This document shows, one piece after another, positions 56,894 through 58,834 of a stretch of DNA of 60,980 nucleotides. The notes beneath the pieces are model-generated. The model worked only from the letters and a program-made list of their open reading frames with translations, was not told where the DNA came from and ran no database searches. Where the stretch lies: contig JALSHV010000018.1 in NCBI GenBank assembly GCA_026981975.1, positions 1 to 60,980 of the forward strand, read 5' to 3'. This stretch comes from Aquificaceae bacterium (lineage in GTDB: Bacteria > Aquificota > Aquificia > Aquificales > Aquificaceae). The position numbers and the translations under genes were made by a program. The number at the start of each line of letters is the position of its first letter. The first letter of the stretch is position 1.

Positions 56894-57745
56894 CTATTCT
56901 ATATTTGCTGCTTGTTGTTTTATTCTATCAATTTCCGTTTTTATATCTACCGCATAAATTGATAAGTCTGGTATTTTCCCTCCTAAGGTGTTTATCTCTC
57001 TGTGCATTTCTTGTGCTATGAATTCAAGTTTTTTTCCAACGTCTCCTTCCTCGGACAGGAGTTCCTTGAACCTTCTCAGATGGGTTTCTAATCTTGTGAT
57101 TTCTTCTTCTACGTCCATCTTCTCCAAAAGGAATAAAATTTCATTTACCACAAGTGGATGTTCTTCGTGAAGATTTAGCTTCTTAGCTCTTTCTCTTATG
57201 CGTTCTTTTAATTTGTGTATAATTCTGTCTTTATTTTTTAGAATTTCCTTAAGAAGTCTACCTATTTTCTCCGCTCTTTTGAACAAATCCCTTTTGAGAG
57301 CTTCACCTTCCCGTTTTCTACTTTCCAACAGATCCTTCAAAGCTCTCCGAGAAGCATTTAAAAGGGTTTCTTCCAGTTCCTTATCCATTTCAGGAGAAAC
57401 CTTTTCGGAGTATTTCCAACTGAGTTCAAAAAGGCTATCATCGGATATATTAAGAGAAAGCTTTTGCCGAGTGAGATTTTTAAGTAGCTCCGCATTTTTA
57501 ACAAGCCTATCAATATCTACGGGCAAAGTAGCCTCTTTGGGTTCGGCTTCTATAAATACTTGAAGGCTTCCTCTTTTCAGGTTACTTTTTATAAGTTCTC
57601 TGATCTTTTGTTCTGCCGGCATCATAAAAGGGGGAATTCTCAAATTTATATCCAATCCCTTTCCGTTGAAGGATCTTATGACAACGGTTACCTTCCAAGC
57701 ACTGCTTTCCTCTTCACCTTTTCCAAAACCTGTCATACTATACAT
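56894..57745 (-). CDS. yicC: YicC-family endoribonuclease
   Basis: The 283-residue protein has the YicC N-terminal domain (MYSMTGFGKGE, VVIRSFNGKGLDINLRIP) and a C-terminal DUF1732 region (EEEITRLETHLRRFKELL, GKKLEFIAQEMHREINTLGGK). Members are reported RNases that act on small RNAs. It is divergent from the JAMM gene with 16 bp between starts. TAAAAT ends 7 bp before the ATG. Confidence 0.92.
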   Translation of the reverse strand: MYSMTGFGKGEEESSAWKVTVVIRSFNGKGLDINLRIPPFMMPAEQKIRELIKSNLKRGSLQVFIEAEPKEATLPVDIDRLVKNAELLKNLTRQKLSLNISDDSLFELSWKYSEKVSPEMDKELEETLLNASRRALKDLLESRKREGEALKRDLFKRAEKIGRLLKEILKNKDRIIHKLKERIRERAKKLNLHEEHPLVVNEILFLLEKMDVEEEITRLETHLRRFKELLSEEGDVGKKLEFIAQEMHREINTLGGKIPDLSIYAVDIKTEIDRIKQQAANIE

Positions 57746-57748
57746 GAC

Positions 57749-57758
57749 TATAATTTTA
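57749..57758. promoter_or_regulatory. Overlapping divergent -10 boxes in a 16-bp gap (yicC / JAMM)
   Basis: TATAAT on the plus strand (57749-57754) ends 7 bp before ATG 57762. TAAAAT on the minus strand (57758-57753) ends 7 bp before ATG 57745. The two boxes share two base pairs and the gap between starts is 16 bp, so any -35 must lie in the opposite gene's coding region. None is obvious. Confidence 0.5.
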
Positions 57759-57761
57759 ACG

Positions 57762-58181
57762 ATGAGAATCAGAAAATCCGCTCTAAGAAAAATTCTTAAC
57801 CAAGCGGAGAGAGACTATCCCTATGAAACCTGTGGTCTTTTACTGGGAAGGTGGGAAGGGAATGATCGCACGGTTTTTGAAGCCTTTGAAACTCCCAACG
57901 TAAACAAATCACGTAAGAGGGATCGTTATGAGATTTCACCTGTAGACTACCTGCGGGCGGAGAAGAAGGCAAAATCTTTAGGACTTGAAGTAGTAGGCGT
58001 GTATCACTCTCATCCAGATCACCCAGACAGACCTTCAAAGTTTGATGCGGAAAGAGCTTTTGAAGGTTTTTCTTACATAATAGTTTCCGTTTGCGAAGGT
58101 AAAGTAGTCTCTTATAGAAGCTGGGAATTTTGTGATGAGGGTTTTAAGGAAGAAAGAATAAAGGTTTTCGGTAAGAGTTGA
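57762..58181 (+). CDS. JAMM/MPN metallopeptidase (M67, Mov34 family)
   Basis: The 139-residue protein has a full JAMM motif: Glu22 (YETCGLLLG), His82-Ser-His84-Pro, Ser92 and Asp95 (HSHPDHPDRPSKFD). Bacterial members remove C-terminal residues from sulfur-carrier proteins or act on ubiquitin-like substrates. No carrier gene is nearby, so the substrate is unknown. A longer frame to 57666 overlaps yicC; the ATG at 57762 fits the -10 spacing. Confidence 0.86.
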   Translation: MRIRKSALRKILNQAERDYPYETCGLLLGRWEGNDRTVFEAFETPNVNKSRKRDRYEISPVDYLRAEKKAKSLGLEVVGVYHSHPDHPDRPSKFDAERAFEGFSYIIVSVCEGKVVSYRSWEFCDEGFKEERIKVFGKS

Positions 58182-58834
58182 TGGGCAGAAGGGAAACAAT
58201 AAAAGCTTTAGAAGTTATAGGATTAAGTGAAGTGTATTTAAAAACAAAAATTGAAAAGGAAACCGACAAAGCAGGACTACTTAAGAAACTTTTTGAGTCT
58301 TTTAAAGACTGCTCAAAGTGCTCCCTTTATAGAAGCAGAAGGCAAGTAGTTTTTGGAGACGGTAATCCTTATTCACCTGTGGCATTTGTAGGAGAAGCTC
58401 CTGGTGAAGAGGAAGATGTTCAAGGAAAACCCTTTGTGGGTAGAGCGGGCAAGTATTTAAACAGAAAACTAGAAGAAATACTGAATATGAAAAGAGAACA
58501 AGTGTATATAACAAACGTTTGCAAATGCAGGCCACCTGCGAACAGAAAACCAACTTCCGTGGAAATAGCTACTTGCTTACCTTATCTAAGACAAGAGTTA
58601 CAGATAATAAAACCTAAGGTTATATGCTGCCTTGGTTCCACAGCGGCGGAAGGGATTCTTGGAAAAAAACTCTCCATAACCAGGCTCAGAGGACAACTGT
58701 TTTCTTATCCTTACGATCAGAAGATAAAAGTTTTTTTTACCTATCACCCTGCTTATATTTTGAGAAATCCAAGATCAGAAGCTGAATTTGTAGAGGATTT
58801 GGAAAAGCTTAAAGAATTGATTGGACAAAGTTAA
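58181..58834 (+). CDS. Family-4 uracil-DNA glycosylase
   Basis: The 217-residue enzyme removes uracil from DNA in thermophiles. It has cysteines for an iron-sulfur cluster (CSKCSLY; NVCKCRPPANRKPT and TCLPYL). The active-site block VAFVGEAPGEEEDVQGKPFVG and the C-terminal YHPAYILRNP are typical. Its ATG overlaps the upstream stop (TGATG). Hot growth makes cytosine deamination frequent, so the gene fits a thermophile. Confidence 0.9.
   Translation: MGRRETIKALEVIGLSEVYLKTKIEKETDKAGLLKKLFESFKDCSKCSLYRSRRQVVFGDGNPYSPVAFVGEAPGEEEDVQGKPFVGRAGKYLNRKLEEILNMKREQVYITNVCKCRPPANRKPTSVEIATCLPYLRQELQIIKPKVICCLGSTAAEGILGKKLSITRLRGQLFSYPYDQKIKVFFTYHPAYILRNPRSEAEFVEDLEKLKELIGQS

Follow-up and report, generated by a model that had tools for sequence, protein, structure and literature searches.

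In a stretch of 60,980 nucleotides from a heat-loving Aquificaceae bacterium (contig JALSHV010000018.1 of assembly GCA_026981975.1; the whole stretch is called the window below), yicC and a JAMM metalloprotease gene are arranged back to back, with 16 bp between their start codons. The locus raises the question of how two genes can be started from so little DNA, and of whether the start of one excludes the start of the other. A first-pass annotation of the window proposed that two overlapping -10 boxes in the gap bring about mutual exclusion without a regulator. The reading that we favor is that the gap very probably acts as one compact bidirectional promoter that gives leaderless messages on both sides, with a core that would have been inherited from an arrangement in which yicC faced a tRNA-Ser gene.

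The gap and its two hexamers

The two start codons are contained in the 22 bases from 57743 to 57764, which read CATGACTATAATTTTAACGATG. The intergenic gap itself occupies 57746-57761, between the CAT of yicC (57743-57745, minus strand) and the ATG of JAMM (57762-57764, plus strand), and the 16 bp given by the annotation are exact to the base. The annotation also placed a -10 box exactly 7 bp before each ATG and had the boxes overlapping by two bases on opposite strands. TATAAT (plus) and TAAAAT (minus) are indeed read at those spacings, and both include 57753-57754, an opposite-strand overlap of the kind that defines a bacterial bidirectional promoter. Each box is a TAnnnT about 7 bp upstream of a start codon, as in TA-led leaderless genes, and no GGAG, AGGA or GAGG occurs in the last 15 bp before either start, again as in leaderless genes.

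The annotation further expected any -35 contacts to fall within the opposite gene. The positions concerned (about 57726-57731 for the plus strand and 57776-57781 for the minus strand) do fall there, but no -35-like element could be recognized at either. A TGn extended -10 was considered for the JAMM side and rejected, with the TG sitting two bases away from TATAAT and no genome-wide TG peak at that position. The lack of both a -35 element and a TGn extended -10 on either side is a point against the promoter reading, and a promoter consensus scan listed no promoter inside the gap.

The yicC start codon is backed by a Pfam YicC_N match from residue 1, and that of JAMM by orthologues that start within one codon of 57762. 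An alternative in-frame JAMM ATG at 57744-57746, which overlaps the yicC start codon, was discarded as lying upstream of the -10 box and not being conserved. The JAMM protein scored below the cut-off of a desampylase model. Its stop codon overlaps the start of a uracil-DNA glycosylase (UDG) gene as TGATG, and UDG directly follows JAMM in most same-genus genomes; across the genus, the protease and glycosylase genes (57762-58834) are kept closely paired.

In the model that we propose, RNA polymerase with sigma-A (the presumed sigma factor) would bind TATAATTTTA both ways round, with TATAAT as its -10 for JAMM-UDG and TAAAAT for yicC. Transcription would start at or beside the A of each ATG, making both messages leaderless, with no 5' leader. 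The claim that polymerase could serve one direction at a time follows from this geometry, in which the predicted starts are separated by 17 bp and the footprints coincide. There would be room for one polymerase at a time, presumably with no real competition, and little effect on either gene would be expected at ordinary promoter strength.

Table. Features of the yicC-JAMM gap and of two further gaps with the same core
Feature	Positions	Strand	Remarks
yicC, YicC/YloC family endoribonuclease, 283 aa	56894..57745	-	PF03755, PF08340 and TIGR00255 above cut-off
JAMM (Prok-JAB) metalloprotease gene, 139 aa	57762..58181	+	PF14464 (1.2e-26), PF01398
Family 4 uracil-DNA glycosylase (UDG), second gene of JAMM unit	58181..58834	+	TIGR00758 above cut-off
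Core TATAATTTTA	57749..57758	both	union of the two -10 boxes
-10 box TATAAT, JAMM-UDG unit	57749..57754	+	6/6 consensus; 7 bp (TTTAACG) to ATG
-10 box TAAAAT, yicC	57753..57758 (57758-57753)	-	5/6 consensus; 7 bp (TATAGTC) to ATG
Predicted yicC transcription start, A of ATG	57745	-	from -10 spacing and lack of Shine-Dalgarno
Predicted JAMM transcription start, A of ATG	57762	+	from -10 spacing and lack of Shine-Dalgarno
pntA / lipoprotein gene gap			16 bp, carries TATAATTTTA; names judged from sequence
pgsA / small membrane protein gene gap			19 bp, carries TATAATTTTA; names judged from sequence

The core beside yicC in related genomes

A search for the two genes in 60 related genomes showed yicC and JAMM side by side in the window's genome alone; every other genome searched lacked the adjacency. 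In all 12 of the same-genus genomes checked in which yicC faces tRNA-Ser(CGA), the core lies at an identical distance from the yicC ATG, and the 5' end of the tRNA is about 19 bp from that ATG. The sequence upstream of yicC in these genomes is TTAAAATTATAG[GA]C-ATG, with TACAAT in one of them. The core TATAATTTTA is identical in 11 of the 12 gaps, the twelfth having a single T->G change, and it presents TATAAT towards the tRNA and TAAAAT towards yicC. The same core thus joins yicC to tRNA-Ser in relatives, which argues that it is older than the yicC-JAMM pair.

Nine of the 10 core columns are invariant, as against 0 of 14 fourfold-degenerate columns of yicC in the same genomes. These fourfold sites are saturated (mean identity 0.33; window versus the others 0.14-0.39), and the invariance of the core despite this saturation argues for selection on both boxes. 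The presence of two overlapping -10 boxes that would both be functional is therefore supported by conservation.

A wider comparison takes in 13 loci at which yicC has a close divergent partner, namely the 12 yicC/tRNA-Ser gaps and the window's own gap. On the strand that reads away from yicC, TATAAT occurs at 13/13 of these loci and at 0/16 family loci without such a partner; 11 of the 16 partnerless loci retain a yicC-directed -10 box at a spacing of 6-10 bp. At every partnered locus TAAAAT or TACAAT stands 7 bp before the yicC ATG (TACAAT in L122), and TAAAAT is also found at this spacing in L129, which has no divergent partner. The comparison among relatives that the annotation had suggested thus finds both hexamers conserved, at 13/13 partnered yicC loci. 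Support from conservation for the JAMM side comes from other loci, the yicC-JAMM gap itself occurring in one genome: a TATAAT-like box lies 6-9 bp before the JAMM ATG in 13 of 14 same-genus loci, with yicC not nearby.

How JAMM might have come to lie beside yicC can be considered from the present locations of the genes. In a complete genome (G007), yicC and JAMM are about 137 kb apart and JAMM lies behind a same-strand gene. The tRNA-Ser(CGA) of the window's genome sits elsewhere (G000:C16:1947-2038), with its own upstream TATAAT, and has recN on one side and phage-type genes on the other. The JAMM-UDG unit has its own leaderless TATAAT box in relatives, and a rearrangement could have substituted this unit for the tRNA, the two parts being joined at or beside TATAATTT, a word common to both ancestral promoters. 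The plus-strand box could be derived from either of two sources, the promoter of tRNA-Ser or the box that JAMM already had, both of which read TATAATTT. If tRNA-Ser(CGA) were the attachment site of a mobile element, this may explain the tRNA's move.

Some other observations concern these neighborhoods. A phage-type lysozyme gene and a holin-like gene lie next to the relocated tRNA-Ser(CGA) (L141/L226; L237:2056-2559). G015 has a homologous lysozyme (61%) near its tRNA-Ser(CGA), which there still adjoins yicC. In G019 (C1:533978-534822), yicC is interrupted, with residues 1-153 and 144-283 in separate frames that overlap, through either a frameshift or a sequencing error.

Leaderless starts and short divergent gaps

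Leaderless transcription is typically recognized by a -10 box 7 bp from the ATG and the lack of a Shine-Dalgarno sequence. Zheng (2011, PMC3160421) took a TA-like signal some 12 bp before the start to mark leaderless genes, with Aquifex aeolicus as a showcase, and the ORF-adjacent motif of Deinococcus was shown experimentally to act as a -10 region (PMC12340547). Genome statistics were drawn from 393 kb of the window's own genome, window included, and from 400 kb each of G007 and G019. TA...T hexamers with at least 5/6 matches at a spacer of 7-8 precede 25 of 179 first genes in the 393 kb, compared to about 2 per position elsewhere, and the -10 peak has an identical position in G007 and G019. 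Genes classed as leaderless (box at spacer 6-9) have a Shine-Dalgarno sequence in 0/38 cases, versus 59/141 for the other first genes, and TTGA was found at 17 bp in just 3 of the 38. We infer that the 7-bp spacing mainly reflects mRNAs that begin with the ATG itself, as leaderless mRNAs do. The annotation missed this meaning, and also that the gene pair, in contrast to the hexamers, is confined to this genome.

Divergent gaps of 8-40 bp make up 17 of about 50 pairs in the own sequence, 17/58 in G007 and 21/54 in G019, per roughly 0.4 Mb; the own 17 include the yicC-JAMM pair, entered by hand beside the output of a simple gene caller. A leaderless-type box is present on at least one side of 13 of these 17 gaps (shuffle mean 3.1, maximum 7) and on both sides of three (shuffle mean 0.47, maximum 3), the both-sided excess being modest when taken alone. 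Across the whole genome, the pattern CAT-N3-8-TATAAT-N3-12-ATG has 19 matches versus 3 in reversed controls, and 10 of the 19 open frames of at least 60 codons in both directions. The core TATAATTTTA recurs at two further divergent gaps of the window's genome, making three in total. Gaps with this core other than that of yicC-JAMM are L178 (G000:C13:53136-53157, gap 16) and L177 (G000:C13:40504-40528, gap 19). Unrelated housekeeping-like genes are often separated by ultra-short divergent gaps, with pntA, pgsA and metG (names judged by sequence) among them.

Competing readings and known promoters

Bidirectional promoters of enterobacteria are defined by divergent starts 7-25 bp apart (PMC10268837), the commonest separations in E. 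coli being 18, 10 and 23 bp (PMC12825309). The gap resembles such promoters (Warman/Grainger; PMC12825309, PMC10268837) in its opposite-strand -10 overlap, its dispensable -35 and the steric competition for one site, with the starts here predicted. In its predicted separation of 17 bp and the side on which the boxes overlap it departs from these commonest E. coli classes, a point against the reading, and its two-base overlap (TATAATTTTA) contrasts with the shared -10 of the 18-bp class. Unlike in known bidirectional promoters, each of the two transcripts would open with its start codon, and whereas the second RNA of those promoters is often antisense and non-coding, here there are genes on both sides. 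The gap is also like the ORF-adjacent -10 leaderless genes described by Zheng (2011, PMC3160421) and in Deinococcus-Thermus (PMC12340547), with a TAnnnT a few bases before the ATG at the same spacing and no Shine-Dalgarno sequence, and Aquifex aeolicus has already been reported among them; it is unlike them in having two of these elements in opposition, with bases in common. A literature search on leaderless bidirectional promoters in bacteria found no description of this combination: the Deinococcus-Thermus study (PMC12340547) mentions neither 'bidirectional' nor 'divergent', and PMC3160421 does not describe such a pairing.

The geometry could have evolved as a switch, with yicC and JAMM expressed in a mutually exclusive fashion and each direction repressing the other with no regulator. 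The overlap of the two promoters is complete, real and kept across the genus, and in E. coli, activating one direction can lead to repression of its opposite (PMC12825309). Nevertheless, the working switch envisaged by the annotation is very unlikely. The partner in 12 relatives is tRNA-Ser, so selection on the overlap predates JAMM, and because tRNA-Ser and yicC are both plausibly housekeeping a switch would have no pair of functions to alternate between. The ancestral tRNA partner, together with the frequency of similar gaps between housekeeping-like genes, makes a dedicated yicC/JAMM switch improbable, and the five E. coli bidirectional promoters that have been measured show no competition at basal activity, competing just when one side is strongly activated (PMC12825309). 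A compact bidirectional promoter, as we prefer, could also be a by-product of compaction, a variant of the preferred reading rather than its opposite. Leaderless genes need just a -10 box beside the ATG, so divergent neighbors can close up until their boxes touch. Given that both boxes work, we put the chance that their overlap is of no consequence at about even: divergent gaps of 14-40 bp turn up often in all three genomes, their boxes standing at differing offsets, but the recurrence of TATAATTTTA at three divergent gaps of the window's genome hints that the symmetric form is favored.

Another reading would have one hexamer real and the other a chance AT-rich match, the second gene being started elsewhere, for example within the opposite gene with a longer leader. 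Lone -10 hexamers are easily matched in AT-rich gaps, and promoter-like sites barely exceed those in shuffles. This reading is nonetheless unlikely in view of the exact coincidence of TATAAT with a divergent partner, the variation of the yicC box solely to another TAnnnT, and the lack of a Shine-Dalgarno sequence on either side. Finally, the assembly could have mistakenly fused fragments of yicC and JAMM at the common TATAATTT, an 8-bp word found in both halves and their relatives, and the restriction of the adjacency to one genome would fit such an error. We consider this extremely unlikely: the junction lies about 3.2 kb inside the window, the assembly is 99.94% complete and 0.24% contaminated, GC3 is similar on either side of the junction, and the tRNA-Ser(CGA) with its own TATAAT was located elsewhere in the genome.

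With the compact bidirectional promoter as the preferred reading, a broader proposal can be made tentatively, as a possibility that we would not yet call probable. In the Aquificaceae, the recurrent 10-bp symmetric core (TATAATTTTA and variants) may serve by itself as a two-way gene-start module, complete and leaderless on both sides, and be inherited intact through changes of partner, as from tRNA-Ser to JAMM-UDG, and a whole class of intergenic regions would then consist of one shared -10 element. Two promoters within 16 bases, with no ribosome-binding sites, would show how little DNA a complete pair of gene starts can take up. The change of partner from a tRNA to a protein gene with the core kept would amount to a natural experiment on the inheritance of bidirectional promoters, and the many similar gaps make the Aquificaceae suited to testing whether overlapping -10 boxes couple neighboring genes. 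These findings refine known promoter biology rather than reveal a new mechanism, and the most interesting among them are that a protein gene has replaced a tRNA as partner and that the core recurs. As a separate observation, JAMM in G019 apparently has a close divergent neighbor of its own at 23 bp (from the simple gene caller; L222:9087-9110), with a poorer -10 match.
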